Shown here in pieces: positions 13,893 through 45,745 of a stretch of DNA of 58,382 nucleotides. The stretch lies in contig JAJZJX010000004.1 in NCBI GenBank assembly GCA_021850985.1, forward strand, positions 1 to 58,382, given 5' to 3'. Below the pieces are notes generated by a model, which saw only the letters and a program-made list of their open reading frames with translations, was not told the DNA's origin and did not search any database. The position numbers and the translations under genes are program-made. The stretch's first letter is position 1. Each line of letters opens with the position of its first letter. Origin of the DNA: a bacterium. Its GTDB lineage: Bacteria; SZUA-79; Acidulodesulfobacterales; Acidulodesulfobacteraceae.

Positions 13893-13918
13893 TATATATT
13901 TCCTCGCTATTAATTCTA

Positions 13919-24309: not shown

Positions 24310-26643
24310 ATGGATATGAACAAAGAAATTAAAGGATTATCTTCATCGGAAGCCGAAGCATTAATTAAACAGTACGGATTAAACGAAATAAAAGAGAAAA
24401 AAAAGCATCCCGTCGAAATTTTTCTTTTAAAATTTTGGAATCCGGTAGCATGGATGTTGGAATTTACCTTTATTATCGAATTAATACTTGGGAAAAACAT
24501 AGAAGCATATATTATTATCGGTTTAATTTTCTTTAACGCCATAATATCTTTTCAACAGGAAAACAAGGCGGAAAAAGCTCTCGAAATTTTGAAAAAACAG
24601 TTAAAAATTATATCGAGGGTTTTAAGGGACGGGAAATGGGTTCAGTTAAGCGCCGAACAGTTAGTTCCGGGCGACGTGATTCACGTCCGAATGGGCGATT
24701 TGGTTCCGGCGGATACCGAAATTATTTCGGGCAGCGTACTGGTGGACCAGTCGGCTCTGACCGGAGAGTCCCAGCCGGTGGACAGAATCGAAGGCGGGCT
24801 TATATATTCCGGTTCGGTAATTAAAAGAGGAGAAGCTACCTGCAAGGTTACGGCGACGGGAGAAAAAAGCTATTTCGGTAAAACTGCGGAACTTATAAAA
24901 TCGGCAAAAACTAAAGGTCATATAGAAGAATTAATTTTAAAAATAGTACGCTATTTTATTATGATAGACGGCATTCTCGTAGTTTTAATACTTGCGTACG
25001 CCCTTATATACAAATTGAATTTTGCCGAAATGCTGCCGTTTGCTTTAATCCTCTTGGTAGCGTCTATACCGGTCGCTCTTCCGGTTACTTTTACTCTGGC
25101 TACAGCGCTTGCTTCAATGGAACTTGCAAACAAAGGAATATTGGTAACGCATCTTTCTGCAATAGAAGATATTGCCTCTATGGAAGAATTATGTTCCGAT
25201 AAAACCGGAACATTAACGGCAAATAAACTTTCGCTTACGGCTTTTAAACCGATTGAACCTTTCGGCGAAAATGAACTTTTTGCCTATGCGGCGGCGGCAT
25301 CGGACGAATCTACGCAGGACCCGATAGATTTATCTATATTATCTTATATAAAAAACAATAAATTGAGCCTGCCGGAAATAGGAAAAACTGTCAAATTTAC
25401 GCCGTTCGACCCCCAGACGAAAAGAGCGGAAGCATTGATAGAAGTATCTGAAAAAGGCGAAAAAAAATTAATTAGTTCGATTAAAGGTTCGCCTATAATC
25501 GTCGAAAAAAATCTTGACGAAAACGATGCAAAAAAACTTAGGGAAGAATCCGAAAAATTTGAGGCTATGGGCTATAGAGTAATAGCGGTAACTATAAAAA
25601 ACGAACAAGAAGATAAATATTTTCCGGTTGGAATTCTTGGACTGTCCGACCCCCCGAGGGACGACTCGAAAGAACTGCTAAAAGAACTCAAAGATTTAGG
25701 AATAAGGGTTAGAATGGTGACCGGCGATACCGAACTTACGGCTAAAACGACTGCCCGCTTAATAGGGCTTGGAGAAGGCGTATGCACGAAAGAAAAATTT
25801 AAAAATCCATCCGGATGCGACGTATTTGCGGGAGTTTTCCCAGAAGATAAATTTCACCTCGTACAGGGTTTGCAGAAGCTGAAAAAGATTACCGGAATGA
25901 CGGGCGACGGGGTAAACGACGCGCCTGCGCTTAAACAGGCGGAAGTCGGCATTGCCGTAGCTAACGCCACGGACGTAGCAAAGGCATCAGCGAGCCTGAT
26001 ATTGACGGAACCCGGTCTTGCAAATATCGTGGATGCCGTAAAATACGGCAGAATGGTTTATAGGAGAATGCTGACTTATACTTTAAATAAAATATCAAAA
26101 ACTTTTCAGGTTGCACTTTTTTTGAGTTTAGGGCTTATATTTTTCGGGAAGTTCGTTACTACTCCCAAACTTATTCTAATACTTGTTTTTGCCAACGATT
26201 TCGTCACTATGTCTATAGCAAAAGACAATGCCGTATATTCCAATAAACCGGATAAGTGGAAAATAAAACTTATAGTATCGGCATCTCTTATAATTGCCGG
26301 AGCATGGCTGATTTATTCTTTTATTTCATATTATATCGGGTATTACTCGATAGGAATGGGTTTGCCTGAGGTTCAAACATTTACGTTTTTATCTTTAGTA
26401 TTCAGCGCACAGGCAACAGTTTATTTAGTAAGGGAAGAACGTCATTTCTGGAGTTCTAAACCGGGAAACTATTTAATGCTCGCAAGCGCTTTAGATTTAA
26501 TAATTATCATTTTAATGGCAGGTTTCGGCATACTCATGGCTAAAGTTCCTTTTGCGTATATATTTATACTGCTTGCGGCGACTTTTATTTATATGGTCGG
26601 ACTAGACTATATTAAGAAGCCGCTGATGGAAAAACTAAGATAG
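24310..26643 (+). CDS. Plasma-membrane-type proton-pumping P-type ATPase
   Basis: P-IIIA ATPase (777 aa) that uses ATP to pump H+ out. An N-terminal cation-ATPase domain precedes helices near 50-90. The actuator has the TGES loop (DQSALTGESQPV). The phosphorylated Asp is D297 in CSDKTGTLT. The hinge is TGDGVNDAPALKQAEVGIAV, and VASIPVALPVTFTLA matches the PVALP helix of H+ pumps. Length and motifs fit the plant/fungal/archaeal Pma1 group rather than Ca2+ or heavy-metal pumps. It stands alone on the plus strand. A palindromic repeat begins 5 bases after the stop. Confidence 0.93.
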   Translation: MDMNKEIKGLSSSEAEALIKQYGLNEIKEKKKHPVEIFLLKFWNPVAWMLEFTFIIELILGKNIEAYIIIGLIFFNAIISFQQENKAEKALEILKKQLKIISRVLRDGKWVQLSAEQLVPGDVIHVRMGDLVPADTEIISGSVLVDQSALTGESQPVDRIEGGLIYSGSVIKRGEATCKVTATGEKSYFGKTAELIKSAKTKGHIEELILKIVRYFIMIDGILVVLILAYALIYKLNFAEMLPFALILLVASIPVALPVTFTLATALASMELANKGILVTHLSAIEDIASMEELCSDKTGTLTANKLSLTAFKPIEPFGENELFAYAAAASDESTQDPIDLSILSYIKNNKLSLPEIGKTVKFTPFDPQTKRAEALIEVSEKGEKKLISSIKGSPIIVEKNLDENDAKKLREESEKFEAMGYRVIAVTIKNEQEDKYFPVGILGLSDPPRDDSKELLKELKDLGIRVRMVTGDTELTAKTTARLIGLGEGVCTKEKFKNPSGCDVFAGVFPEDKFHLVQGLQKLKKITGMTGDGVNDAPALKQAEVGIAVANATDVAKASASLILTEPGLANIVDAVKYGRMVYRRMLTYTLNKISKTFQVALFLSLGLIFFGKFVTTPKLILILVFANDFVTMSIAKDNAVYSNKPDKWKIKLIVSASLIIAGAWLIYSFISYYIGYYSIGMGLPEVQTFTFLSLVFSAQATVYLVREERHFWSSKPGNYLMLASALDLIIIILMAGFGILMAKVPFAYIFILLAATFIYMVGLDYIKKPLMEKLR

Positions 26644-26982: not shown

Positions 26983-28308
26983 TTAGCGCCAATTAGTCCT
27001 TGAAAATTCGGGAAGGTCTTCAAAGTCTCCCCTTATGGCGTAACCTTCATTTATGTTGTATATTTCAAATTCGTTATCTATAACGAACGAATATATGTTG
27101 CCGTTTAAAAATTCATCTTTATATTTAAGGCATTTTAATCCCTGCCTGATAATTGCCGACAATATTCCGCTGCCGGAAATATCGCCCAGCAATATCGCTC
27201 CAACCAAGACTTCTCCGTCAAAAACAAGTTTTCTATATATGTTATCGTCTTGAAAAATAAAAACGCTTTGGGTCTCATTAGAAGGATTGGTTAAACCTAT
27301 GGTTACTATAGGAAGTCCGTAAATTTCGACGGAATTTAAACCCATGCCGCCAGGATATTCCCTGTAAACTCCCGCCATGTTAGTTCCCGCAACCCTTCCC
27401 TCTTCGCATGCCAATGGAACGATGGCTATTATGTTTGGACGTTTATTTATGACGTCATAGATTACAACTGCATCGCCGCCTGCATACACGTCTTTAACGC
27501 TCGTCATCATAGTTTTATCGACTATTATGCCTCTGTCTATTTTTACTCCGCTTCCTTCGAGAAAACCGACATTGGGTCTAACGCCTACGCCGACTACGAC
27601 GATATCTGCAGGCAATTCTTTGCCGCTTTTCAATAAAACGCTGACGGGATTGCCGGATTCGTCTAAGTTAATTTTTGTTACCGTCTCGCCGGTAGCCGTA
27701 TCTATGCCGTTTTCGTTAAGTTTTTTAGAAGTAATGTTTCCCGATATTTCGTCAAGAGCAAGCCCGAGAACTCTCGGCAACAATTCGACTATGGTAGTAT
27801 GAAGACCCAATGCCCTTAATCCTTCTGATGCTTTAAGCCCTATAAGTCCGCCGCCGACGACTATCGCTTCTTTTCTTTTAGACATTTTTGCGGCTTTTTC
27901 CATTTTTTTGGCATCGTCGAACCGTGTAAAAGTACCCATCATAGGGGAATCGGGGTTAAATCCTTCCGTCGGGGGTATAAAAGGCGTTCCGCCGGGGCCG
28001 ACGAACAGTTTGTCGTAATTTACGGCCGAACCGTCTTCCAAAACTACTCTTTTAGCATTAGTATCGACGGAAACTACTTTTTTTCCGAGCATTAAATCGA
28101 AATTATTTTTTTCGTAATAATCGTCTTCTTTATACCATATAGTTTCGTCGGTAGTTTTTCCTTCCAAATAATATGAAATCAAAGGCCTTGCATAAGCCCT
28201 GTAGTTTTCGTCCGATATTATTACGACTTCTCCCGACTTGTCGAAACGCCTTATTGCATCGGCGCACGATAAACCGGCGTATGAATTTCCTACAATAACG
28301 TATTTCAT
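26983..28308 (-). CDS. FAD-dependent NAD(P)H oxidoreductase (rubredoxin/ferredoxin reductase type)
   Basis: Two-dinucleotide-fold flavoprotein (441 aa). FAD fold: VIVGNSYAGLSCADAIR; NAD fold: AIVVGGGLIGLKASEGL; the FAD-ribityl motif VYAGGDAVVIYD follows. The active-site region lacks the redox-active CxxC of disulfide reductases, which fits electron transfer to an iron-sulfur partner. A C-terminal dimer domain follows. It lies 15 bases after a four-motif ferredoxin; such pairs occur next to CO dehydrogenase (CooF plus FNOR), but no cooS is in this window. Confidence 0.88.
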   Translation of the reverse strand: MKYVIVGNSYAGLSCADAIRRFDKSGEVVIISDENYRAYARPLISYYLEGKTTDETIWYKEDDYYEKNNFDLMLGKKVVSVDTNAKRVVLEDGSAVNYDKLFVGPGGTPFIPPTEGFNPDSPMMGTFTRFDDAKKMEKAAKMSKRKEAIVVGGGLIGLKASEGLRALGLHTTIVELLPRVLGLALDEISGNITSKKLNENGIDTATGETVTKINLDESGNPVSVLLKSGKELPADIVVVGVGVRPNVGFLEGSGVKIDRGIIVDKTMMTSVKDVYAGGDAVVIYDVINKRPNIIAIVPLACEEGRVAGTNMAGVYREYPGGMGLNSVEIYGLPIVTIGLTNPSNETQSVFIFQDDNIYRKLVFDGEVLVGAILLGDISGSGILSAIIRQGLKCLKYKDEFLNGNIYSFVIDNEFEIYNINEGYAIRGDFEDLPEFSRTNWR

Positions 28309-28323
28309 AATCTTATCCCCTTT

Positions 28324-28878
28324 TTAATATTGCTTAGATATCGATTTTATATAAGGTCCGTATATTTTTTTTGCGACGGAAAGCCTTCTTTCGTATGAAT
28401 AATTTTTAATACCGATTCTTTTTAGCGCCCCTTTCTTACATGCTTCTACGCATTTCGGAGTATCCTCATCCGAACAGCCGTCGCATTTTGAAGCAAAATG
28501 GTCTTTTCCTATTCTTTCTATAGCTCCGAACGGACAAGACATTACGCACATCCAGCATCCGACGCATTTTTTATAATTAGTTACCGTCCATCCCGACTCC
28601 AAGTCTTTATATCTTGCTCCCGGCATACATGCATCGACGCACGGCGCCTCGTCGCAGTTGTGGCATATCAAAGGAAAAAACTTGTTTCCTTTCTTTTTTA
28701 TATTAATTCTGGCTCCTGCATATTTTGAACCGTATTTTTCAGACATATGCGATTCGCATGCTTTTACGCAAGCCGCAAAGCCTTCGCTTTCGCATCCGTC
28801 GCATTTTGAGGGATAGAGCATTATTTCTATTTGATTTTTCTTTAAATCTTCCTCTAAATTTGTAAGTTTTTTACTCAT
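28324..28878 (-). CDS. Four-motif [4Fe-4S] ferredoxin (CooF/DmsB-like)
   Basis: 184-residue electron-transfer protein. Cysteine groups: CDGCESEGFAACVKACES, CHNCDEAPCVDACMPGA, CVGCWMCVMSCPFGAI and CDGCSDEDTPKCVEACKKGA, enough for four clusters. No signal peptide. It pairs with the FAD/NAD oxidoreductase downstream and follows the MobA-like gene. A plausible job is to connect NAD(P)H to the Mo/W enzyme of the cluster; this is inference from position. Confidence 0.88.
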   Translation of the reverse strand: MSKKLTNLEEDLKKNQIEIMLYPSKCDGCESEGFAACVKACESHMSEKYGSKYAGARINIKKKGNKFFPLICHNCDEAPCVDACMPGARYKDLESGWTVTNYKKCVGCWMCVMSCPFGAIERIGKDHFASKCDGCSDEDTPKCVEACKKGALKRIGIKNYSYERRLSVAKKIYGPYIKSISKQY

Positions 28879-28908: not shown

Positions 28909-29862
28909 TTATTTGCATATTTCTTCACTGAATGCGCCTACATGGCCGCGTATCGTTTTAATTAATTTTCCGCCCATAAAATCTAATCCGCCTGCGTAAT
29001 ATTTATCGGAGTCTTTTTTAAAATAGCCGTAAGATTTTTTTAGATAAATGTAATTTCCAGTTTTTGAATATATCCACCAGTAATATAGAGCATTTGCAAG
29101 TATGCCGGACGGTTTTCCCGACGGATTTTTTACGTCGAAAAATCTATTAGCTTTTCTTATTTTAACACTTTTTGCATATTTTTTTTTATCGGTATTAATT
29201 TTTCCCGCCAAGTAATTTTCGATATCATTCTTTGAATTAATATTCATAAAAAATTCTATTTTCAAATCCGGATTTTTTTTGATTATATCCGATATATTAT
29301 AATAATATGCCGACGGCAGAAATCTTGAAATATTCACCGAATCATTAAACGGAAAATTTTTCCCAAGATTCAACGCGTAATCGTTTAGCATATCTAAAAC
29401 CGCAGCCGTTTTTTTTATATTATAAATACCGAGGAGGGGTTCTACGGTGGAATCCTGCCATAAAGGCACTACCGCATTGACTTTCTCCTTCTCCATTTTT
29501 TCAATTAGTTCGTTTGCAGCCGAAAAATTAAATAAAGGCGCGTCGCACTCCATAACAAGAGCGTATTTGCCTTTAAGACGCTTAATGCAGCTGTAAATTC
29601 CTCTAAGAGGACCGATAAAGCCGCAGTTTGTATCGTCGGCAATTACCGGCGGACTTATGTTTAATTTTTTTTTTAGCTCATTGCTATAAAGTTCTGCGTT
29701 TTCTTTTTCTCTTGCCGAAATTATTATATCGCCTTTTAATTTTAGGGCTGTTTCCGCCGCTCTTTCTATAAACGATTTTCCGTTAAAATTAAAAAATGCT
29801 TTATTTTCTCCGAATCTTTTAGATTCGCCCCCGGCAAGTATTATACAGCTTAATTTTCGCAT
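28909..29862 (-). CDS. MobA-like molybdenum cofactor guanylyltransferase with C-terminal extension
   Basis: 317 residues. The first 200 are a MobA-type nucleotidyltransferase: CIILAGGESKRFGENKA, then a GPLRGIY block and VMECDAPLFN for metal binding. MobA would join GMP to molybdopterin. The protein is over 100 residues longer than E. coli MobA. The tail (about 215-317) is rich in Tyr, Lys and Gly, with SGILANALYYWWIYSKTG and GGLDFMGGKLIKTIRGHVG, and is not a domain I recognise. It lies between the QueD-like gene and the ferredoxin on the same strand. Confidence 0.8.
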   Translation of the reverse strand: MRKLSCIILAGGESKRFGENKAFFNFNGKSFIERAAETALKLKGDIIISAREKENAELYSNELKKKLNISPPVIADDTNCGFIGPLRGIYSCIKRLKGKYALVMECDAPLFNFSAANELIEKMEKEKVNAVVPLWQDSTVEPLLGIYNIKKTAAVLDMLNDYALNLGKNFPFNDSVNISRFLPSAYYYNISDIIKKNPDLKIEFFMNINSKNDIENYLAGKINTDKKKYAKSVKIRKANRFFDVKNPSGKPSGILANALYYWWIYSKTGNYIYLKKSYGYFKKDSDKYYAGGLDFMGGKLIKTIRGHVGAFSEEICK

Positions 29863-29891: not shown

Positions 29892-30377
29892 TCATAATTC
29901 TATCTTTATTCTGCCTCTTTGGCCGTGTCCTTCGCTTAGCGTAACTTCAAAATAATTTATAGGGTTAAACATTTCTCTATTTTTTAAATCTGCGGCAAGT
30001 TCGCCGGCGAAATAAACCGTCAAATCCTCGATATTTAAAGACGGACACTCTATTTTAAAAATATCGGCTTTCGGTATAAGATACATTTTACCGTTAATTT
30101 CTATCCTGTAATGCAGTTCTTCCATGACAATGCGCTGAACGCTTTCAGGATAATCGGCTATTAATATTTTATCTTCAAATGTAGAACATATTCTTTTTAT
30201 AACGGCTTTTAAGTTATACAGATGCACTATTCTCCTTTTGTCGTCGAATTCTCCGTCGATCAAAACGTCCACATAATGAAAATGAGGATGAATTCTCGAG
30301 CAGTCTCCTTTTCCAGGAACTATATGCATACATTCAAACGTTAATCCGGCTTCTTTACCGTTCAGTTCTACTATCAT
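29892..30377 (-). CDS. Divergent QueD/6-pyruvoyl-tetrahydropterin synthase-like protein
   Basis: 161 residues of the T-fold PTPS/QueD family. Zinc ligands are kept: H18, then H30 and H32 in CSRIHPHFHY, with the catalytic-type C26. The usual Asp-His catalytic pair (LDH) is FEDK here, placing K70 at the His position, so normal carboxytetrahydropterin or sepiapterin chemistry is doubtful. The conserved end VTLSEG resembles the family's final Glu region. A canonical queD exists at 42552-42935, so this is a second, specialised copy. It sits directly after the MoaA-like gene, 23 bases away, suggesting a pterin step tied to Mo/W cofactor assembly. Confidence 0.72.
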   Translation of the reverse strand: MIVELNGKEAGLTFECMHIVPGKGDCSRIHPHFHYVDVLIDGEFDDKRRIVHLYNLKAVIKRICSTFEDKILIADYPESVQRIVMEELHYRIEINGKMYLIPKADIFKIECPSLNIEDLTVYFAGELAADLKNREMFNPINYFEVTLSEGHGQRGRIKIEL

Positions 30378-30400: not shown

Positions 30401-31243
30401 TTAATAATAAAAATTTTTAAGAACGCCGTTCGGCAGAAGCCTTAAACCGCCGCATCTGTCTCCGGTAGATTTGCATACGTCGCTTACTTTTCTGCAAAGA
30501 GTAATTTTAGAATTTTTAATTTTAAAAAACTGCCTGTCGTTCGTATTATCGTTTAAAAAATCTAATCCTGCTTTTTTTAACGTTGCGTAAGGGTCGGCAT
30601 AAAACTTAGAATACGTAGCCTCGCCGATTTCGTTCGATAATTCTATAAACTGCAGATCAAAATCGTTATTTACGCAATAATCAATTAATTCGTTTAATGA
30701 AGACTTTGAAGAATTTATTTTTTTTAGTAAAACCGCGTCTATTTCAACATTATAACCGGAATTTTTTAGAATCTTAAGTCCGGATAGAACTTCCCCCAAA
30801 TAGTCTTTGCCTGTAATATATTTATAAAATTCAGGGTCTAACGTATCTAAACTTACGGATATTTTATCTATAATATTAGGACTAAGGTCTTTAATTCTTT
30901 TTCTGATAAGAGTGCCGTTCGTCGTAATATACAGTTTTAAATCACTGATATGTTTAACCTTATATAAAAGATTTTTTAAATCTTTATAAAGCAGGGGCTC
31001 GCCACCTGTAAATTTAATTTTTTTAAGTCCGAAACCTTTTAGCGAATATATGACGTTTATTATATCGCCCGTCTGAATAGTCGAAGAAATTTTTCTGGGA
31101 ACGCCTTCGTTGTGGCAGTAAAAACAGTTTTCGTTGCACCTGCCTAAAAGAGAAACCCTTAAGGACGGAATTTTAAATTTAAATCTTTCAAAATTAGAAT
31201 CGTATGCCGTATTTTCGAATAATTCAAATAAATACTGTTTCAT
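30401..31243 (-). CDS. MoaA-like radical SAM protein lacking the full C-terminal cluster motif
   Basis: 280 residues. The radical-SAM motif is C36, C40, C43 (CNENCFYCH), with TGGEPLLYKDL, TTNGT and SVSLDTLD as in MoaA, which makes the first pterin intermediate from GTP. It is about 45-50 residues short of standard MoaA. The C-terminal motif C-x2-C-x13-C is incomplete: C264 is present in RCGGLRLLPNG, but the first position is G261 and the last is F278; C250 and C257 lie nearby. The protein ends at KNFYY, so the Gly-Gly tail is also missing. The stop is natural: a ribosome site and the next gene follow. Either it folds a different cluster or it makes a different product. Confidence 0.8.
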   Translation of the reverse strand: MKQYLFELFENTAYDSNFERFKFKIPSLRVSLLGRCNENCFYCHNEGVPRKISSTIQTGDIINVIYSLKGFGLKKIKFTGGEPLLYKDLKNLLYKVKHISDLKLYITTNGTLIRKRIKDLSPNIIDKISVSLDTLDPEFYKYITGKDYLGEVLSGLKILKNSGYNVEIDAVLLKKINSSKSSLNELIDYCVNNDFDLQFIELSNEIGEATYSKFYADPYATLKKAGLDFLNDNTNDRQFFKIKNSKITLCRKVSDVCKSTGDRCGGLRLLPNGVLKNFYY

Positions 31244-31253
31244 AATTTGTTTT

Positions 31254-32546
31254 TTATTTATATTCGATTTCGTAATCGTTTAACGTAACGTCTATCAAAC
31301 TTCCTGCTTTTAAATTCGTAATATCCTCTTCCATAACAAAACTGCCGTCGGCATTTATCATCGGACTTAACGATCTTGCGGCGGAAGGAGGCTTAGGGGC
31401 TGATATTACTTCGGCATATAACGAACCTTCGCTTTTAGTTAACTTAACCTGAAAATACTTCCTGACGCCCTCTTCTTTTATTATATCATTTTTTAAAGCG
31501 GCTTTAACAGAAGGATATCTTTTATACTGGTCTTTATAGTTGGACATTCTTTGAATAGCAGGCCTTACGAAAAGGTCGAACGTAATAAGAACGGAATAAG
31601 GCCAGCCCGCAAGCGCAAAAATAGGGGTGCCGTTAGTAAGCATGCCGAACGACGTCGGCTTGCCCGGAACTAATTTTACTCCGTGGAATAATAATTTTCC
31701 GGTTTTTTCTATTGCGGAAGGAACCAGGTCGTAAAAATTTTTTATCTCTTTGCTTTCCAAAACCAGAAAACTTGCGCCCGTTCCGCCGGTAGAAATAATG
31801 AGGTCGTATCGTGAAGACTCGTCGGCATTTTTTAAAGTTTGCGTTAATTTTTCAAATTCGTCCTCGACCGCGCCGATTACCTCCGGAACGCCGCCGGCAT
31901 CCGACACTAAAGATTTCAAAACCGTCGTATTTATATCGTATATTTTATTAGTTTTTAACTTTTCGCCTGGTGGCGTCAGTTCGTTTCCTCCGGACAATAT
32001 TCCTACCGAAGGTTTCTTATAAACCGAGATCGAGTCCATCCCTATCCCTGATAGGGCGGCAATGTCGCAGAATCTTATTCTGTGCCCTTTCTCGAAAAGG
32101 ACCTCTCCGGCCTTTATATCGTCTCCTATAGGAGATACATAAGAACCCTTTTCGACTTTCTTTTTGTAAACCATATAACCGCCGGCATACTCTTCTGCGT
32201 CTTCTATTAATACCACGCTGTCGGCATTGGGCGGAATAGGAGCGCCTGTAGTTACGAAAGCGGCTTCTCCCGAATTAAGAGGCTTTATCTCTTTCGAGTA
32301 TCCGGCCGTTATTTGATTTTTAACCTGAAATTTATCTATTTTTTTTTCTAAAAAATCGCTCGATATAACCGCAAAACCGTCAACTGCGGATCTTACAAAA
32401 GGAGGGACTTCGTTTTGCGGAATTATGTTTTCGGATATTATCCTGCCGAGTGAATCTTCGACGGAAATAATTTCGCTTTCCTTTATTTTTTTAATATTTT
32501 CAGCGGTAATATCAAGTAATGTTTTAGCGGTTTTTTTATCCTGCAT
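31254..32546 (-). CDS. moeA: MoeA-like molybdopterin molybdenumtransferase, variant
   Basis: 430 residues with the four MoeA domains; it would insert Mo or W into adenylylated molybdopterin. PPFVRSAVDGFAV matches the usual P.....SA.DGYA motif, and TTGAPIPPNADSVVLIE and PGKPTSFGML are standard. The active-site loop, normally TGGVSxGxxD, reads STGGTGASFLVLES here, so the conserved Asp is missing, and the usual LPGNPVS reads LAGWPYS. It is the first gene after the terminator at 32565-32607 and heads the second half of the cluster. Variant MoeA copies are known where tungsten is used; that is a possibility, not a proof. Confidence 0.85.
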   Translation of the reverse strand: MQDKKTAKTLLDITAENIKKIKESEIISVEDSLGRIISENIIPQNEVPPFVRSAVDGFAVISSDFLEKKIDKFQVKNQITAGYSKEIKPLNSGEAAFVTTGAPIPPNADSVVLIEDAEEYAGGYMVYKKKVEKGSYVSPIGDDIKAGEVLFEKGHRIRFCDIAALSGIGMDSISVYKKPSVGILSGGNELTPPGEKLKTNKIYDINTTVLKSLVSDAGGVPEVIGAVEDEFEKLTQTLKNADESSRYDLIISTGGTGASFLVLESKEIKNFYDLVPSAIEKTGKLLFHGVKLVPGKPTSFGMLTNGTPIFALAGWPYSVLITFDLFVRPAIQRMSNYKDQYKRYPSVKAALKNDIIKEEGVRKYFQVKLTKSEGSLYAEVISAPKPPSAARSLSPMINADGSFVMEEDITNLKAGSLIDVTLNDYEIEYK

Positions 32547-32564
32547 GGAGTTTTTATTTTTTCA

Positions 32565-32607
32565 AAACAATAATAGCCGCCAAATATTTAGGCGGCTATT
32601 ATTGTTT
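32565..32607 (-). terminator. Strong hairpin terminator within the Mo/W cluster
   Basis: A perfect 17-bp stem (AAACAATAATAGCCGCC against its complement) around a 9-base loop. On the minus strand it is followed at once by a short T-rich stretch (the stem ends in TTGTTT, then TGAAAAAATAAAAA). It separates the enzyme genes (37183-32616) from the cofactor genes that start with moeA at 32546, so the two halves can be expressed at different levels. Confidence 0.75.
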
Positions 32608-32615
32608 AAAGTTAA

Positions 32616-32861
32616 TTAAAAATATGGCTCTACGGGATATGTTTTAATTCCCGCTTTTTTAATAGCCTTTAATGCTTTATCTTCTTCCTCTAAACTTACG
32701 AATATAGTTGCATGATAAGGCGTAACGCTTGCGACGTTTCTTCCTAGTATATGAATTTTTTCTTTTTTTAATGTTTCTTCTGCCTTGTCGAAATCTCCGT
32801 TTATATAATCGACTCTTATAGGCGCATTATAAACGGTCCCGGACTTCAGTGCCTCTGCCAT
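32616..32861 (-). CDS. Small ACT-like protein in the Mo/W operon
   Basis: 81 residues, no cysteines, no signal. The pattern (a strand APIRVDYINGDFD, helix AEETLKKEKI, strand ATIFVSLEEE, helix ALKAIKKAGIKTYPV) is that of a small alpha/beta ACT-like fold, but no ligand motif is recognised. It is the last gene of the enzyme half of the cluster, 54 bases after the Fe-S subunit and just before a strong terminator, so it may be a chaperone or regulatory subunit for the Mo/W enzyme. Confidence 0.7.
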   Translation of the reverse strand: MAEALKSGTVYNAPIRVDYINGDFDKAEETLKKEKIHILGRNVASVTPYHATIFVSLEEEDKALKAIKKAGIKTYPVEPYF

Positions 32862-32915
32862 AATTAACCTCCTTATTTTATTTTTAATATTTTTAAAATA
32901 TAGTCAAATATTTAA

Positions 32916-33572
32916 TTATCCGACTTTAATCTCATTATCGGTATCGTTTACGTTTGACGTTCCCATTTGACTTGGATTAGGAGCGACAAAACCGAATAAA
33001 TGTTCCGTTAATTTTCTGGCGGTCTTCTCTCTGTCTATGGTCGATATTCTGTTTATATTTCCGAACCATAAAGCGTCCGCCGAGCATAAAGTTACGCATG
33101 CCGGCAAAAGTCCTACGTCAATTCTGTGTTTGCAGTAATCGCACTTCGTTACTTTTCCCGTAGCTTCGTTAAACTGAGGAGAACCGAAAGGACAAGCGTG
33201 TATGCAGGATTTGCAGCCGATACAGGTATTGGGATCGTTAAATACGATGCCGTCGGCTCTTTTCTGCATAGAACCTGTAGGACAGGCTTTTACGCATGCG
33301 GCATCGTCGCAGTGAAAACAGTTCATGGGAAGATATACCGTTTTAAGCTGCCCTTTTTTGATAAAATAAGGTCCTACCTGTATAACCCTCATTCTGCGGG
33401 GTCCAACTGGAAGATTATGTTCTTTTTTGCACGAGACTTCGCAAGACATACATCCTATGCATCTGTCTACATTTACTTTCATCGAATATTTTGGAGTGGA
33501 AGACTTCAGGGTAATCCTGGAAGCTCTTTCTTCTCCAAGGTGAAATCTGTCAAATCCGTATTCCGAAGACAT
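32916..33572 (-). CDS. Four-cluster iron-sulfur subunit of the Mo/W oxidoreductase (DmsB/PsrB family)
   Basis: 218 residues with four cysteine groups: CIGCMSCEVSCKKEHN, CFHCDDAACVKACPTG, CIGCKSCIHACPFG and CDYCKHRIDVGLLPACVTLC. This is the standard four-[4Fe-4S] partner of DMSO-reductase-family catalytic subunits. No Tat or Sec signal, so the complex is cytoplasmic. The gene lies 147 bases after the catalytic subunit gene with a palindrome in the gap. No NrfD or cytochrome b anchor gene follows, which is unusual for this family. Confidence 0.9.
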   Translation of the reverse strand: MSSEYGFDRFHLGEERASRITLKSSTPKYSMKVNVDRCIGCMSCEVSCKKEHNLPVGPRRMRVIQVGPYFIKKGQLKTVYLPMNCFHCDDAACVKACPTGSMQKRADGIVFNDPNTCIGCKSCIHACPFGSPQFNEATGKVTKCDYCKHRIDVGLLPACVTLCSADALWFGNINRISTIDREKTARKLTEHLFGFVAPNPSQMGTSNVNDTDNEIKVG

Positions 33573-33678
33573 ATTTATACTCCTATTTTTATTTAAATTA
33601 AATTTCTTTTAACGTCCGGAAATTTGCATATTATCATGTTTTAATGAATTTTTTATGCAAATTTACGGCTTTTCAAAT

Positions 33679-33707
33679 ACGGGGACGGAATTCAATTCCG
33701 TCCCCGT
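33679..33707. repeat. GGGGACGGAATT palindrome between Mo/W subunit genes
   Basis: A perfect palindrome ACGGGGACGGAATT, C, AATTCCGTCCCCGT, followed by the CACAAAT tail typical of the family. Compared with the copies at 9608 and 26648 the arms carry G for A in the left arm and the matching C for T in the right, a compensated change. It lies between two genes of one operon, where a strong hairpin could reduce read-through or stabilise the upstream message. Confidence 0.85.
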
Positions 33708-33719
33708 CACAAATTTACA

Positions 33720-36263
33720 TTAGTATTTACGAATATCGCAGGAAACCGGCGTACATTCGACCGGCTCTTTAAAATTAACAAGCTTTTTCCAGCCTATGCT
33801 AAGCTCATGATATTCTTTCCAGTGATTTTTCCATTTACCGACGATAACATTTTTGTCCTGATGTTTAGGATCCCAAACTTCGGGGAATCTTTTCTGCAAA
33901 AATTCAAGAGTCTTTTTTGCAGTGGTATCAGGATCTGCATCGCCTTTTCTATAAACCCTGCAAAGAACGGCTTTGAACTGTATCTGTCCGTAAACGGGGT
34001 CTTTTATAATATCGTCTATAACGGTATTAATAGATTCATACGGATGAAACGGCTGATATCTGTCAAACCCGAAATTTGCCCATATTCCGTCTTCCGGTAC
34101 CATTTCGGTTACCCATGCCGGACCTTCAACCCATCCTCTGTCGTTTTCTACTATAACCATATCTCCGTCTTCGATTCCCATAACCGCAGCCGTTGCAGGA
34201 TTTATCTCTATATTTCTGTCGGGTTCGAGTTCGTCGTTCCAAGGCCACCAGTGACCTCCTTCATGAAAGGACTGCGCTATCCTGGTAGTATTTAATACTA
34301 ACGGATATTTCTTGGCTCTTTCAAAATTTCCTATCGGCGATTCCGAACCTTCAACCTGCGTAGGAACTTTATACCAGCCTATTTTCTCCAAAGCTTCCGA
34401 AGCTAATTCGATTTTGCCTGAAGGCGTCGGGAATCTCTTGTCGGATTCCGGATAATTTTCTCCTTCTTTATACATTATCCATTTGCCTCTTAAAACTGCT
34501 TCATCGTCCTGAAATACCGCTTCTTCTTTCGACATAACGGGCCACATTAAACCGCCTTTAGGGTTTTTTTCCGGATTAAGAAGTTCGTACGTAATACCCC
34601 TCGTAAACGATTCCTGTTCGTTAAAGAAGTCGGTCATTTTAATTTCGTTTACTCTTCCTTTATCGGGACCTTCTTTATAGTAACCCCACGGATTAAATTC
34701 AACTTTATCGAAATGTCCGGCTTTGCCTTTAAGCCTTTTTGCAAGACCGTCGAAAACATCGATGTCAGCTCTGTGTTCATGCTGATAAGGTATTATTTTA
34801 TTGTGCCACTGAAGAAGCCTGTTGTTTCCGTGATGGCAAACGCTGTCGGTTTCTACGGAGATTGCTATAGGAAACGCAACATGGCTGAACATATACGTAT
34901 GATTTGGATAAATGGAAAGATGGATATTGATTATATTTTTCTTCATCGCTTCTTCCATTTTCCAGGAATTTGGAAACTGCGGCAGATGGTCGCCGTTCCA
35001 TATAATACCCTTAACAGGATACGGTTTTTCATACATCATCGCATTTATTATGCACGGTACCGAACTGTCTCCCCAGGATATTAATTTGTCTGTTATCTGC
35101 GGTCTTTTAAAATCCGGCAGATCTTTTAAATCGTGTCCGTAATTCAGAGGAGGACGGCAGTTATGCAGCCAGTTCCATCCGCCGCCTTTAACGCCTATAG
35201 ATCCGGTAAGAGCTAACAATGCCGCTATGGACCTGTTTACGTTGTTGGAGTTATAAATCTGCGCCGTTCCAAGGTTGCCGGTCACCGACGCAGGTCTTGC
35301 CGAACCGAATCTTCTTGCGGCTTCTATAATCATTTCTTTTGGCACGTATGTGAGTTTTTCGGCTCTTTCAGGCGTCCACTGGGCGCATTCTTTTGCATAC
35401 TCTTCAAAACCTTCAACCCATTTATCCACAAATTCTTTGTTGTAAAGTTTTTCTTTTATTATGATATTGCCCATAGCCAAAAATAAGATTGCATCGGATC
35501 CTGAACGGATTCTCATTCCTATATCGCATTTTGAAAGCGTTGCGTTGAAACGCGGGTCAACGCCTATTAAAAATGCGCCGTTATCTCTTGCATCCAGAAG
35601 ATGAGTCATCGTGATAGTTTCCTGCGCCGCCATATTTGTACCGACTACGAGAATACACTTAGAGTTTTTCCAGTCCTGCGAAGGATTCATAAGCCTGCCG
35701 AGTCCTTTTGCGCCGAAAACGTAGTTCATGGATACGCCCGGGCTTTCGCAGCATATAGGTCCCTGCCCGTAAACGTTAGGCGTTCCGAATATCCTGCCGA
35801 ACCTTGCGCCGCCTTCTTTATTGCCGAATGAAGATCTTCCTGTCCTGAAAACAGTCAATGCCTCGGGGCCGTATTCGTCATGAAGTTTTATTAATTTTTC
35901 GGCTGCAAAATCAAGCGCATCATCCCATGAAACCCTTTTAAAATCGTCAGTTAATGATTTCCTTATCATCGGATGATGTACTCTTAAAGGATCGTACCAC
36001 CACTGAATCTGACCGACGCCCTTAGAGCAAAGGCCGCCTCTGTTTTGCGGATGTTCCTCATCTCCCATAACATCGACTATTTTGCCGTCTTTCAAGAATA
36101 TTTTAAGACCGCAGCCGCTTTCGCACATATTAGTGCAGGTGGAATAGCGAACCGTGTCGTATTCTTTCGTTGATTCCTGCGGGCGATGATCGGGCTTTAT
36201 TTTCATAAGCCTGTTATCTTTCACGCGCATGAACTTTTCGTTTTTTAACTCCTCAAAATCCAT
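33720..36263 (-). CDS. Cytoplasmic Mo/W-bis-pterin oxidoreductase catalytic subunit
   Basis: 847 residues of the DMSO-reductase superfamily. The N-terminal [4Fe-4S] site is C43, C47, C51 (C-x3-C-x3-C) and C79; most thiosulfate/polysulfide reductases have C-x2-C-x3-C. The metal ligand is probably a cysteine in GPICCESPG (C171 or C172). Pterin-binding blocks follow: LVVGTNMAAQETIT, LIGVDPRFNATLSKCD, VTGNLGTAQ, GSIGVKGGGWNW, and the C-terminal RIAQSFHEGGHWWPWNDE with EINPATAAVMGIEDGD. No twin-arginine signal, so it stays in the cytoplasm. A polysulfide/thiosulfate reductase-like, acetylene-hydratase-like or novel enzyme are all possible; the substrate cannot be named. Confidence 0.88.
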   Translation of the reverse strand: MDFEELKNEKFMRVKDNRLMKIKPDHRPQESTKEYDTVRYSTCTNMCESGCGLKIFLKDGKIVDVMGDEEHPQNRGGLCSKGVGQIQWWYDPLRVHHPMIRKSLTDDFKRVSWDDALDFAAEKLIKLHDEYGPEALTVFRTGRSSFGNKEGGARFGRIFGTPNVYGQGPICCESPGVSMNYVFGAKGLGRLMNPSQDWKNSKCILVVGTNMAAQETITMTHLLDARDNGAFLIGVDPRFNATLSKCDIGMRIRSGSDAILFLAMGNIIIKEKLYNKEFVDKWVEGFEEYAKECAQWTPERAEKLTYVPKEMIIEAARRFGSARPASVTGNLGTAQIYNSNNVNRSIAALLALTGSIGVKGGGWNWLHNCRPPLNYGHDLKDLPDFKRPQITDKLISWGDSSVPCIINAMMYEKPYPVKGIIWNGDHLPQFPNSWKMEEAMKKNIINIHLSIYPNHTYMFSHVAFPIAISVETDSVCHHGNNRLLQWHNKIIPYQHEHRADIDVFDGLAKRLKGKAGHFDKVEFNPWGYYKEGPDKGRVNEIKMTDFFNEQESFTRGITYELLNPEKNPKGGLMWPVMSKEEAVFQDDEAVLRGKWIMYKEGENYPESDKRFPTPSGKIELASEALEKIGWYKVPTQVEGSESPIGNFERAKKYPLVLNTTRIAQSFHEGGHWWPWNDELEPDRNIEINPATAAVMGIEDGDMVIVENDRGWVEGPAWVTEMVPEDGIWANFGFDRYQPFHPYESINTVIDDIIKDPVYGQIQFKAVLCRVYRKGDADPDTTAKKTLEFLQKRFPEVWDPKHQDKNVIVGKWKNHWKEYHELSIGWKKLVNFKEPVECTPVSCDIRKY

Positions 36264-36298
36264 TTTTTTACCTCCGTTTTAATTAAAGTATATTTATT

Positions 36299-37183
36299 TT
36301 ATATCCGGCACTCTTCTAACTTTACATTTTCTGGTTTAACTGCGCAAGGCAATATACCGTTTAATATCTCTCCGCAGCCGTCGATATCAAGCATGAAACC
36401 GATAAACTCTACTAGTCCGATTACCGGCGCAAATACGTCTAAATCAGATAATTTCATACCGTCGTCTATATTTTTTTCGCACATGGAACAAACCGTGACT
36501 ATATAGTCCGAATTTGTTTCGTCGGCTTTTTTATTTATTAGTTTGAAGAAATTATCGGCAATATTTGCGTTTTCAACTCTTTTAGAATGAACAGGCGTCA
36601 TATTTTGGAGCTTTTCGCCTCCGCAGCAGTCGTTAAATATATTAACTTCGGCGCCCATAATATTGAATAGTTTCTTTAATGATTCTATTTTAGCATCGTC
36701 TTTATAACATCCGGTATAAAGAAGAATAGAGTTCCCTTTTATTTTCGACGGAACGGCTTTCAACAGTTTATTTTCGACGGAAGCATCCGTAATAATATCG
36801 ATTATATGAATAGCTCCGGTCTTTGACGTATCCGTTTCTTTAAGCCGCGCATTAAACGGGTTCAGACTGTAATCAGCCTGTTTTCTGAACATAGAATCCG
36901 AATTGATAAGATTAAGGGATTCATTTATCTGCTTTACGCACACGGAACAGCCGGAATATAAAAAATTTTCGCCGTCATTCTGACATAAACCTAAATTTCT
37001 CAAGGGCATTACAGCTTTGTTAAAAAAATCGGGTTTATAGTGCGAGGGCGGAGCGCCGCAGCAGTTCCATTCCGAAACCGGCTTAATATCTATGTCTAAT
37101 GCGCTAAAAATGTTTTCTATTTTTATTTTGCGGTCAAAAGAATTTACGCAGCCTGGAAAATAAACAATATGATTTTTCAACAT
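36299..37183 (-). CDS. HdrB-like CCG-domain protein linked to the Mo/W enzyme
   Basis: 294 residues with two CCG domains: VYFPGCVNSFDRK and EWNCCGAPPSH, then YTGCYKDDAKIES and DCCGGEKLQN with VTVCSMCEKN. These bind a non-cubane [4Fe-4S] cluster in heterodisulfide reductase HdrB and reduce disulfides or pass electrons to quinone or flavin. It is the first gene of the enzyme operon, 35 bases ahead of the catalytic subunit. It is clearly different from the SdhE copy at 12010. It could take the place of the missing membrane anchor. Confidence 0.85.
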   Translation of the reverse strand: MLKNHIVYFPGCVNSFDRKIKIENIFSALDIDIKPVSEWNCCGAPPSHYKPDFFNKAVMPLRNLGLCQNDGENFLYSGCSVCVKQINESLNLINSDSMFRKQADYSLNPFNARLKETDTSKTGAIHIIDIITDASVENKLLKAVPSKIKGNSILLYTGCYKDDAKIESLKKLFNIMGAEVNIFNDCCGGEKLQNMTPVHSKRVENANIADNFFKLINKKADETNSDYIVTVCSMCEKNIDDGMKLSDLDVFAPVIGLVEFIGFMLDIDGCGEILNGILPCAVKPENVKLEECRI

Positions 37184-37761: not shown

Positions 37762-39198
<1,437 letters not shown>

Positions 39199-39223
39199 TT
39201 ATAAATTGGCTATACTTATGCAA

Positions 39224-40069
39224 TTAAGCGGTTAAATTATGGTGCGCTTTCATATGGCAATCATAGGAAGTTTTTTCTTCTTCCTTATAAAATTTAAGCC
39301 TGTTCATAAGATTGTCAAAATCCACTAAATGCCCGTCGAAGTCGGGACCGTCAACGCAGGCAAATTTTGTTTTATTGCCTACCAGAACTCTGCATGCGCC
39401 GCACATTCCCGTTCCGTCTATCATAATAGGATTCAAGCTTACGATTGTTTTTATAGATTTTTCTTTAGTTAGGTCGCTTACCGCTTTCATCATAATTACC
39501 GGACCGATGGCTATAACCCTGTTTATCAGTATTTTTTTATCGTAAATAAGGTTTCTTAAGACATCCGTGACTATGCCTTTAGTGCCGCAACTTCCGTCGT
39601 TTGTAGCGGCAAATACTTCGTTGCTCGCCGCTTTCATCTCGTCTTCCATCAAAAGAAGTTCTTTGCTTCTTGCTCCGATTATAGATATGACGTGATTTCC
39701 TTCCGCTTTCATAGCTTTAGCTATAGGATATATCGCAGCGGTTCCGAAACCGCCTCCTATACAAACTACGGTTCCAAATTTTTTTATTTCGGTGGGAACG
39801 CCGAGAGGACCTACTAAATCCGCCAAACTTTCGCCGACATTCAATTCGCTGAGCAGATGGGTAGTTTTTCCAAGAGTTTGCACAAGTATAGTAATAGTTT
39901 TATCTTTTTTGTCGGAATTTGCGATAGTAATAGGGATTCTTTCGCCGTTTTTATTTACCCTCAATATTATAAACTGACCGGGCTGCGCTTTTAACGCTAT
40001 ATCCGGAGCCGATATATTATATAAATTTATCCCTTCGCCGAGATTTTTCTTGCCGATTATTTGATACAT
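39224..40069 (-). CDS. nfnA: NfnA/SudB-type FAD/[2Fe-2S] small subunit
   Basis: 281 residues of the ferredoxin-NADP reductase/PyrK family. RVNKNGERIPITIAN binds FAD, VGPLGVPTEIK and CIGGGFGTAAIYPIAKA bind NADH. The C-terminal motif MCGACRVLVGNKTKFACVDGP with a preceding Asp (DGTGMCG) fits the unusual Asp/Cys-ligated [2Fe-2S] cluster of NfnA. It is 46 bases from nfnB and transcribed first. Confidence 0.93.
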   Translation of the reverse strand: MYQIIGKKNLGEGINLYNISAPDIALKAQPGQFIILRVNKNGERIPITIANSDKKDKTITILVQTLGKTTHLLSELNVGESLADLVGPLGVPTEIKKFGTVVCIGGGFGTAAIYPIAKAMKAEGNHVISIIGARSKELLLMEDEMKAASNEVFAATNDGSCGTKGIVTDVLRNLIYDKKILINRVIAIGPVIMMKAVSDLTKEKSIKTIVSLNPIMIDGTGMCGACRVLVGNKTKFACVDGPDFDGHLVDFDNLMNRLKFYKEEEKTSYDCHMKAHHNLTA

Positions 40070-43620: not shown

Positions 43621-44886
43621 ATGCATTATAATACAATATCTATATTTTATATTTTAATATTATCATTATTTTTATTTTTTTTATATATTTTTTTATTTAA
43701 AAATATACAATCTTTATTTGCTAAAAATAAATTAAAGGAATATAAGCGCGAAATCGATAATTATCAAACTATTTTAAACAACATTGCCGAAGGAGTTGCC
43801 GTTATAAACAAAGAAAAAGAAATCTTGTTCGTAAACGAATCTTTCGGCAGGAATATAAGATCGGCAAAAACGGACGCAAAAAATATTAATAGCCGGTTCG
43901 ATTTTTTAACCAGAAATATAGAACTTAATTTCTTAATAGATGAAGCGGTTAAAAATAGTTTATTTAAAATTGCCGAAAAAAAAATATTCTATTACGACAG
44001 AGCCGAAAAAAAAACTGCAAATTGCGTAATATTTAAGATAAACGATAAGGATAAATACGCAGTAATAGTAAAAGACGTCACCGATATTCAAAAGGTAGAA
44101 GATATCAGGTCGTCTTTTATCCAGAACGTCTCTCATGAACTGCAAACGCCCGTAACGGCTATTACCGGTTTCGCCGAAACTTTAAAAAACGGCGCTATAG
44201 AGAACCCTGCGGTCAGAATGAAATTCGTCAATATAATCGAACAGCATGCAAAACGGCTTCGGTTTTTAATCGACGACCTTATTACGCTTTCCAATATAGA
44301 AACGGAAAGGTTTCCGGTCAAATTAGAAAATATAGATATTAAAGCCAATATAGAAAATTCTTTAATTTTATTTGAACGTGAAATAAAAGAAAAAAATTTA
44401 TCCTTTACAAATAAAGCAAAAAACGATATCTTTATTTCCGACCCGGGTAAAATCATCCTTATAATAAACAACCTTATTCAGAACGCCGTAAAATACGGCA
44501 ACAAAAACGGCACGGCAATAATAGACGGATATACTTGCGGCAGATCAGACGCGATGAGTTTTCTTTCGGAAACCGAAGAAACATCCGTTTTATGGAATTT
44601 TTATTTTCCTAATGAAGACGACTCGCAATTTCTTTTCTTTTCTATAAGCGATAACGGCATCGGCGTAAATTATACTAATCTTTTAAGGCTCGGCGAAAGG
44701 TTTTTCAGGATTGACGGCTCGCATAAAAATTCGGCGAAAGGTTCGGGGCTCGGTCTGGCTATCGTCAAACACACGCTGAAATTCTTAAGGGGCGGTGCGG
44801 TCATTAAAAGCGGCATGGGAAAAGGATTTGAGTTTTCTTTTATTTTACCGGTTAAAACGGTTAAACAAAATTTAAATCGGGAATAG
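43621..44886 (+). CDS. PhoR-like sensor histidine kinase, orphan
   Basis: 421 residues. One N-terminal membrane helix (about 6-28) with very short outer part, then a PAS-like region (about 45-150, IAEGVAVINKEKEILFVNES). The HisKA box is FIQNVSHELQTPVTAITGFAE with the phosphorylated His near 172. HATPase motifs are NNLIQNAVKYG, FSISDNGIGV and GSGLGLAIVKHTL. No response regulator gene is adjacent on either side. Its 3' end overlaps the convergent mqnA end by 26 bases. Confidence 0.92.
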   Translation: MHYNTISIFYILILSLFLFFLYIFLFKNIQSLFAKNKLKEYKREIDNYQTILNNIAEGVAVINKEKEILFVNESFGRNIRSAKTDAKNINSRFDFLTRNIELNFLIDEAVKNSLFKIAEKKIFYYDRAEKKTANCVIFKINDKDKYAVIVKDVTDIQKVEDIRSSFIQNVSHELQTPVTAITGFAETLKNGAIENPAVRMKFVNIIEQHAKRLRFLIDDLITLSNIETERFPVKLENIDIKANIENSLILFEREIKEKNLSFTNKAKNDIFISDPGKIILIINNLIQNAVKYGNKNGTAIIDGYTCGRSDAMSFLSETEETSVLWNFYFPNEDDSQFLFFSISDNGIGVNYTNLLRLGERFFRIDGSHKNSAKGSGLGLAIVKHTLKFLRGGAVIKSGMGKGFEFSFILPVKTVKQNLNRE

Positions 44887-45745
44887 ATTTTATAAGCTTG
44901 TATTTGTACAGCAATTCGGTATAGATATTAAAACCTCTTATTTCGTCGGATCCTAAATTAAAACTCAGGCAGTCTGTCCAATATTCCATAAGCTCCTCAA
45001 AAGATATGAAATTATAATCTCCGGATTTTATTACAGATTCGGCTGCCTCTTTAAAACCCGATAAAGCCTTTCTTTTTGATTCTATCAAATAATCGTATAG
45101 AACCGAAAATTCATTTTTATTAGCATCGTAAGATTCTTTTCTTATTATAAAAAGAGCGAAAACAAACGGAAACGAGGTATGCCTGTACCATAAATCCGCT
45201 AAATCGTAAGCATGATAACCGTCGGGAATAGATTTTACAAGCCTTAATGCATTGTTGCCTATATGCAGGAAACTGCTTCCTTCGGCTATTTTTTTATAAT
45301 AATCCGAATCTATCTCAAGTTCTAAATTGTCGTTCTGTTTCAAGCTTAAAAATTTCATTAAGTTTAAATCCATTTTATAGAATTCGGCTAATAAAACCTT
45401 AAGTAAATTTACGGAGGTAAGAGTTTCGGGGGTAACGTATATCGTTTCGTTCTTATTGAAATCCTCTATGGACTTATTTGAAAAAAGATATATGCTTTTA
45501 ACTTTTTTCTTAGAACTTATCGAAAGATTTGGAAATATATAAGAATTATCGTAATTAGAAATATAGTAAAATGAAGATGAAGGGCTTATATCTACTCCGC
45601 CGGATTGTAATTTACGGTTCAAAAAAGCCGGCGTTCCTGAAATAAAATCCGCAAAATTATTCCTGTTTTCGTCTTTAAGTATTTTTTTTAAATAATAATA
45701 GATAGGATAAACGTTTAAATAATTTATTTCTCCTATTCTAATCAT
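44861..45745 (-). CDS. mqnA: Chorismate dehydratase MqnA (futalosine menaquinone pathway)
   Basis: 294 residues of the periplasmic-binding-fold MqnA/MqnD family, opening IRIGEINYLNVYPIYYYL, with SSSFYYISNYDNSYIFPNLSIS-type blocks and a LHIGNNALR/YDLADLWYRHT region fitting MqnA better than MqnD. It makes 3-enolpyruvyl-benzoate from chorismate, so menaquinone is probably made by the futalosine route, in line with the type E quinone reductase. It is convergent with the histidine kinase. Confidence 0.85.
   Translation of the reverse strand: MIRIGEINYLNVYPIYYYLKKILKDENRNNFADFISGTPAFLNRKLQSGGVDISPSSSFYYISNYDNSYIFPNLSISSKKKVKSIYLFSNKSIEDFNKNETIYVTPETLTSVNLLKVLLAEFYKMDLNLMKFLSLKQNDNLELEIDSDYYKKIAEGSSFLHIGNNALRLVKSIPDGYHAYDLADLWYRHTSFPFVFALFIIRKESYDANKNEFSVLYDYLIESKRKALSGFKEAAESVIKSGDYNFISFEELMEYWTDCLSFNLGSDEIRGFNIYTELLYKYKLIKSIPDLNFV

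Follow-up and report, generated by a model that had tools for sequence, protein, structure and literature searches.

The window analysed here, a stretch of 58,382 nucleotides, comes from Candidatus Acidulodesulfobacteriota (SZUA-79), an uncultured acid-mine lineage described as sulfur- and iron-cycling in PMC6776010. A string of ten genes lies on its minus strand (Table 1). It comprises an HdrB-like protein (hereafter HdrB), the molybdenum or tungsten (Mo/W) catalytic subunit MopB, the iron-sulfur protein Fer4x, the small protein P81, four genes associated with the molybdenum cofactor, and a pair of genes, FeS184 and NADHox, resembling an NADH module of a known kind. The first four genes had been described as an operon in the first-pass annotation, and their open reading frames (ORFs) lie exactly where it placed them. 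That unit had been taken to end at P81, whereas the conserved string runs on to the NADH module, which had been missed and which is kept both in the family of the window and in Nitrospirota. As had been proposed, no membrane-anchor gene was found among the ten genes with Pfam and NCBIfam, which gave no match to NrfD or cytochrome b; the same searches found no HdrA, HdrC or MvhD among them, the remaining ORFs of the window having been partly annotated. The PTPS/QueD-like protein (29892-30377) is kept at 71-96% identity within the Mo-cofactor genes.

Table 1. Genes and features of the MopB gene string, with positions in the window.
Feature	Position	Strand	Basis
HdrB-like protein, two CCG domains, 10-cysteine motif	36299..37183	-	PF02754, alignment, AlphaFold2 (AF2) model
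MopB catalytic subunit, Mo/W-bis(pyranopterin guanine dinucleotide) (bisPGD), one [4Fe-4S] (C43, C47, C51, C79), predicted metal ligand C171	33720..36263	-	
Fer4x, four-cluster Fe-S electron-transfer subunit, nearest solved relatives PsrB/ArrB	32916..33572	-	
P81, ACT-like 81-residue protein	32616..32861	-	predicted fold
Terminator-like hairpin between P81 and MoeA, ends approximate	32564..32606	-	
MoeA-like Mo-cofactor protein	31254..32546	-	Pfam/NCBIfam, family loci
MoaA-like radical SAM protein	30401..31243	-	Pfam/NCBIfam, family loci
PTPS/QueD-like pterin protein, inside cofactor gene string	29892..30377	-	Pfam/NCBIfam, family loci
MobA-like guanylyltransferase	28909..29862	-	Pfam/NCBIfam, family loci
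FeS184, second four-cluster Fe-S protein, AorA/PadI-like	28324..28878	-	
NADHox, flavin adenine dinucleotide (FAD)/NAD(H) oxidoreductase subunit, AorC/PadH-like	26983..28308	-	

Of the 29 loci yielded by a scan of the contigs of relatives, 22 belong to the window's own family (L005-L025 and L030; SZUA-79 and Candidatus Acididesulfobacter diazotrophicus are among their titles), five carry the name Nitrospirae or Nitrospiria (L026-L029, L031) and the remaining two are distant (L032, L033). Within the family, the order HdrB-MopB-Fer4x-P81-MoeA-MoaA-PTPS-MobA-FeS184-NADHox is kept as far as each locus reaches. Among the 21 loci L005-L025, FeS184 can be traced in 20 loci and NADHox in 15, the remaining loci stopping before or at the gene. 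MopB is borne by 25 of the 30 genomes of the family set (24 with a whole MopB, and G025 with MopB split over two contigs), and HdrB adjoins it in all 25, in agreement with the linkage first proposed. P81 lies on the contig of MopB in 24 of these carriers and on a separate contig in G029. Given this adjacency of HdrB and the shared contig of P81, the grouping of HdrB, MopB and P81 is not due to chance. Neither MopB nor HdrB occurs in G006, G007, G009, G010 and G018. Of these, G006 (with 6% contamination) and G018 have a completeness of 99% and lack NADHox and P81 as well; G010 is 59% complete, and G009 exhibits P81 on a contig that ends inside Fer4x. In G007 and G009, other parts of the string remain, and these two genomes are probably cut. 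Of the 30 genomes, 26 have NADHox, the exceptions being G006, G010, G011 and G018.

How closely the loci L005-L025 match the window differs widely between the genes of the string. MopB exhibits the highest mean identity of the ten (94.0%, n=21; 89-99% in individual relatives), followed by Fer4x (91.6%, n=21), NADHox (89.5%, n=15), FeS184 (87.5%, n=20) and the PTPS-like protein (82.2%, n=20). The values are lower for P81 (79.0%), MoeA (74.2%), MoaA (65.9%), HdrB (62.2%) and MobA (56.4%), with n=20 each. The slow-evolving group is formed by the catalytic pair and the NADH module, and HdrB belongs to the fast group.

MopB exhibits the three molybdopterin domains PF00384, PF01568 and PF04879 and no RR in residues 1-60, so that it has no twin-arginine translocation (Tat) motif; the earlier prediction of a catalytic Mo/W subunit without a Tat signal is borne out. 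NCBIfam models matching at 0.001 number 25, and none reaches its cut-off, which is in keeping with the earlier proposal of a candidate new complex. The best match is the formate dehydrogenase alpha subunit (TIGR01591, 273.5 bits for a cut-off of 666), and the PhsA model gives 229 bits for a cut-off of 694. C171 aligns with the selenocysteine (Sec) of FdhF and does not vary in any clade row that spans the position. In formate dehydrogenases, the Sec or Cys ligand is followed by His. In the clade, the residue after the ligand is Cys or Thr and never His, and the alignment sets C171-C172 of MopB against Sec-His of FdhF. The CC pair to which attention had been drawn is thus sound as to the ligand, and was rejected as a signature because C172 varies, being Thr in L072. 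Likewise, the C-x3-C-x3-C spacing is present as reported and was rejected as an unusual trait, since it is common to E. coli DmsA and the second MopB of the genome. Across the clade rows of the MopB alignment, 286 of 847 residues are invariant (two truncated rows being excluded for residues 1-59).

In a tree of 30 MopB proteins, of the kind that the first-pass annotation had suggested, the family and Nitrospirota sequences join (100/98), followed by the MopB of the Nitrospirota genome G413 (100/100) and then by three plasmid proteins of Nostoc, Streptomyces and Pseudohalocynthiibacter (89/94). The clade lies apart from PhsA, DmsA, FdhF, NapA and the two other MopBs of the genome, in a tree that has several long rows and whose references do not include SoeA, TtrA, ArrA, PsrA or acetylene hydratase. 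These two other MopBs are on contig 44 of G000 (L079, L080); one lies beside genes read by eye as a membrane hydrogenase/antiporter cluster, and one, which groups with FdhF (84/61), beside a NuoEF-like gene, also read by eye. The best reading of the MopB sequences is an undescribed clade of the dimethyl sulfoxide (DMSO) reductase family, falling under no named enzyme.

Fer4x exhibits 4Fe-4S dicluster domains in Pfam, and its 16 cysteine residues are invariant in all 22 distinct family sequences, as expected of the four-cluster subunit that had been predicted. Its nearest PDB relatives are PsrB (2vpw_B, 4.3e-31) and ArrB (1.5e-30). The case of P81 is less clear. Its model, of moderate confidence (predicted local distance difference test, pLDDT, 72), has a beta-alpha-beta-beta-alpha fold, and many of the 50 listed Foldseek matches are ACT-domain proteins, as judged from their titles, which is consistent with the ACT-like label it had been given; none of the Foldseek matches reaches E<=0.001, and nothing is over the cut-off in Pfam, NCBIfam, PDB sequence or PADLOC searches. 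Below the Pfam thresholds, the widest reach is that of ACT_8, which matches 7 of 17 members with a best E of 0.014, and SBP_bac_5 has the lowest E (0.0076, three members). The homology of P81 is a guess from its predicted fold. The protein exhibits 16 invariant columns in 17 sequences from both lineages and occurs in 27 of 376 genomes, namely 26 MopB carriers and G009; within this set, it accompanies only the MopB of the string.

The hairpin between P81 and MoeA reaches -26.3 kcal/mol in the window and is followed by GTTTT; a consensus terminator scan did not list it. A hairpin of -14 kcal/mol or better is found at this position in 14 of 21 loci and a weaker one in three, and the P81/MoeA gap is just 1-22 bp in four of the 21, as measured from tblastn ends and therefore approximate. 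The terminator earlier placed after the 81-residue gene is thus present in the window and not universal, and it was rejected as a general end of the operon. Another strong hairpin (-23.9 kcal/mol) lies between MopB and Fer4x in the window, at 33681-33707.

With regard to the NADH module, NADHox has its best PDB match in AorC, from a W enzyme that reduces NAD (8c0z_E, 4.6e-51, 177 bits). Two NADHox partners from Nitrospirota score 336 and 347 bits, which, being blastp against phmmer values, allows only a rough comparison. For the NADHox of the window, the PadH model (NF045765) gives 285 bits for a cut-off of 475. FeS184 matches 9mqx_E (7.4e-17), subunits of HDCR and, lower down, AorA (8c0z_C, 1.2e-10), and its 16 cysteine residues are unchanged in all 23 rows compared, which comprise the window, family loci and three Nitrospirota. 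A glutamate residue after a Rossmann motif of this type favours NAD(H), and NADHox has one behind its second such motif (VVGGGLIG...TIVEL), which suggests that NADH is preferred to NADPH. In AORAa, AorA passes electrons to the FAD of AorC, where NAD+ is reduced (PMC10413684, PMC6365974).

Outside the family, the wider MopB search (386 genomes, threshold 1e-80) returned 26 genomes, the 25 family carriers and G707. Among 395 genomes of Nitrospirota, the phylum of G061 (a 'Nitrospirae' metagenome-assembled genome), MopB was found in ten at E <= 1e-90. Nine of them are close, with 54-55% identity over long matches and 49-61% over two pieces of G099, and the tenth, G413, is at 33%. The order in the close set is MopB, Fer, P78, in some a protein of 774-803 residues, a TorD/NarJ-like chaperone (PF02613 in L029, 4e-21), a FeS184-like protein and a NADHox-like protein. 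L029, L074 and L077 (L028 being the contig of L077) carry this string complete as far as the FAD subunit, while L072 and L075 are cut inside FeS184. The extra protein between P78 and the TorD-like gene is found in L027, L029, L075 and L077, with about 750-800 residues (L029 3583-5907, L077 8169-10580); its C-terminus was read by eye as VWA/NorD-like, and that of L029 has no Pfam match at 1e-4. The MopB of G413 (L076), with 31-33% identity and a long branch, is the nearest MopB found outside the clade; it lies beside 2-oxoacid oxidoreductase genes (POR_N, TPP) and a FAD/NAD protein.

The Nitrospirota loci differ from those of the family in one respect. None of the six with at least 5 kb upstream (L027, L072, L073, L074, L075 and L078, of whose contig L026 is part) exhibits a stand-alone HdrB-like gene upstream by tblastn. 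A search for HdrB in four Nitrospirota genomes at E <= 1 returned one weak match (27%, E 7e-10, in G061) and nothing in the other three. The proposal that HdrB is the defining partner is therefore not sustained: homologues with an unlinked CCG gene, which the first-pass annotation itself had named as grounds for refutation, are largely what Nitrospirota exhibit, although a CCG protein lies some 4-6 kb from MopB in three of these loci (L072-L074).

HdrB itself exhibits two stretches of PF02754 (E 1.4e-12, over the cut-off), and its ten motif cysteine residues are invariant in all 24 distinct family sequences. Its AF2 model (pLDDT 76.7, predicted template modelling score 0.78) has methanogen HdrB (8rvu_B, template modelling (TM) score 0.72) as its best PDB match, over most of its length, which upholds the assignment as an HdrB-like CCG protein. 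It scores 34.2 bits for the HdrB of CoB-CoM heterodisulfide reductase (TIGR03288, cut-off 345), and its best NCBIfam score is for SdhE (NF042965, 44.4 bits, cut-off 500). A hydrophobic stretch at residues 250-268 has a Kyte-Doolittle hydropathy of 1.73, such a scan not being diagnostic of membrane binding. The same window contains SdhA (TIGR01812, over cut-off), SdhB (TIGR00384, over cut-off) and an HdrB/SdhE-like CCG protein at 12010-15595, and a menaquinone biosynthesis gene (PF02621) at 44861-45745. This second CCG protein is below the HdrB and SdhE cut-offs and 23% identical to the MopB-linked HdrB. The SdhA-SdhB-CCG set seems to be an E-type succinate/fumarate oxidoreductase, so the lineage seems to use a CCG protein there too. 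SdhE is a ten-cysteine CCG protein without predicted transmembrane helices that is most likely held at the membrane by amphipathic helices, according to PMC2680327. Because of this description of SdhE, and of the Sdh-CCG set and menaquinone gene in the window, the likeliest guess for HdrB, by analogy, is a monotopic quinone port. Because the search beside the Nitrospirota enzyme turned up no stand-alone HdrB and HdrB diverges fast, HdrB looks like a lineage-specific addition rather than the defining partner of the enzyme.

Four known systems share parts of this arrangement. In AorABC, the tungsten aldehyde oxidoreductase (AOR) of Aromatoleum aromaticum (PDB 8c0z), a Mo/W subunit is likewise connected through a four-cluster Fe-S protein to a NAD-using FAD subunit, and the FAD and Fe-S subunits are similar in sequence to NADHox and FeS184. 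In contrast, the catalytic subunit belongs to the AOR family there and to the DMSO-reductase family here, and the string has two four-cluster proteins, the ACT-like protein and HdrB. The Psr, Phs and Arr complexes also combine a MopB with a four-cluster B subunit, that of the string being nearest to PsrB and ArrB, whereas the string has no Tat motif and no anchor gene and reaches no equivalog cut-off. HdrB together with a MopB enzyme recalls HdrABC-FdhAB, of which 7bkb_B is a fold match to HdrB, and HdrBCA-MvhD-FdhBA is described in PMC5736913. Unlike that complex, the string lacks HdrA, HdrC and MvhD, and neither the cut-off nor the residue following the ligand marks its MopB as a formate dehydrogenase. 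With no HdrA-type flavin subunit among the ten genes, the earlier suggestion of a bifurcating complex finds no positive support. SdhE of E-type succinate/fumarate oxidoreductases is similarly a ten-cysteine CCG protein acting as a non-transmembrane electron port; HdrB differs in being far under the SdhE cut-off and in having MopB, not SdhAB, as its partner. The surprise of the string is reduced because its conserved partner is an NADH module of a known kind. The combination itself was not found described in literature searches of open-licence PMC papers, and no word beginning 'molybd' occurs in the main text of the paper describing the lineage (PMC6776010).

We consider it moderately probable that the enzyme of the string is a Mo/W-bisPGD oxidoreductase that works in the cytoplasm, is linked to NADH and represents an undescribed DMSO-reductase-family clade, and that an HdrB port has been added to it. 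The parts would form one complex. Electrons would pass between NAD(H), the FAD of NADHox, the four [4Fe-4S] clusters of FeS184, the four [4Fe-4S] clusters of Fer4x, the [4Fe-4S] cluster and Mo/W cofactor of MopB, and the substrate, in a chain that would be reversible in principle. P81 could serve in assembly or at an interface. The HdrB of Ca. Acidulodesulfobacteriota would, through two non-cubane clusters, act as a second port for electrons, whose acceptor would most likely be menaquinone, as for SdhE-type subunits, or else a thiol/disulfide. Possible substrates are a sulfur oxyanion or polysulfide, or an organic acid or aldehyde.

Several observations weigh against this arrangement. In the window, four cofactor genes and a terminator-like hairpin separate FeS184 and NADHox from the first four genes, so that the two may be transcribed separately, and eight of 22 loci have a MopB/Fer4x hairpin of -18 kcal/mol or better. 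NADHox is present without MopB, HdrB or P81 in G007 (86% complete), while G011 (84% complete) has MopB and no NADHox match, two exceptions that contig gaps may explain. FeS184 and NADHox also resemble modules of the PadI/PadH type and others. A CCG protein, confirmed by Pfam in L072, lies about 4-6 kb from MopB in L072-L074, near qmo-like genes (qmoAB as read by eye). HdrB is so far from SdhE (44 bits of 500, and 23% identity to the CCG protein of the Sdh set) that the quinone reading is weak.

A different, rather doubtful possibility is a cytoplasmic sulfur-compound enzyme of the Psr/Soe kind, acting on polysulfide, thiosulfate or sulfite, in which the CCG protein replaces NrfD and meets the quinone or a DsrC-like disulfide. 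The closeness of Fer4x to PsrB and ArrB and the sulfur-cycling lineage would fit, as would the position of MopB near the qmoAB genes of L072-L074 and near aprBA-qmoABC in L078, all read by eye. However, the PhsA score is far below its cut-off, the MopB tree had no SoeA, TtrA, ArrA or PsrA rows, and dsrA does not track MopB. No dsrA match is found in 6 of the 25 MopB-bearing family genomes, including G016 (99% complete), and the gene is full-length in four of the five family genomes without MopB, with G006 and G018 exhibiting dsrA and no MopB. In Nitrospirota, five of nine MopB carriers have dsrA compared with 177 of 395 genomes overall (raw counts; G099, not being among the matches listed, is counted as lacking dsrA). 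A link to dissimilatory sulfite metabolism through dsrA was therefore rejected, as no association was seen; the enzyme is thus independent of DsrAB, and a DsrC-trisulfide role for HdrB becomes less likely.

It is unlikely that the enzyme acts on an organic substrate, such as an aldehyde, a 2-oxoacid or an aromatic acid, with an NADH module shared with AOR/Pad-type enzymes. The module is indeed nearest to AorC and PadH, and the MopB of G413 lies beside POR_N and TPP genes, but that MopB is distant and on a long branch, and an NADH module tells the electron acceptor, not the donor. We would also not expect HdrB to stand outside the enzyme as a co-transcribed thiol/disulfide or assembly protein, as its fast divergence (47% identity where MopB has 89-92%) and the Nitrospirota loci could suggest, since it adjoins MopB in every carrier, is missing where MopB is missing and keeps its ten cluster cysteine residues throughout.

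A GltD-like and FNR-like pair at 37762-40069, read by eye as NfnAB/SudAB-like, lies upstream of two tRNA genes; within the flanks covered, only L005 and L006 have a match to it near MopB. A plasma-membrane proton-efflux P-type ATPase is encoded at 24310-26643 (over cut-off).

The cytoplasmic NADH-linked oxidoreductase favoured here raises the question of what HdrB contributes, given that the Nitrospirota enzyme seemingly manages without it. A further reading, which we regard as improbable, is a two-port Mo/W enzyme that lacks HdrA and has a single site wired both to NADH, by way of the AOR-type flavin module, and, by way of HdrB, to menaquinone or a disulfide. If true, this would give a possible NADH:menaquinone route, with the MopB reaction as a third entry, to a lineage in which nuoE, nuoF and nuoG were not found, according to PMC6776010. 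More generally, the wiring proposed here, if correct, would make CCG proteins and NADH modules of the AOR type interchangeable ports on enzymes of the DMSO-reductase family.

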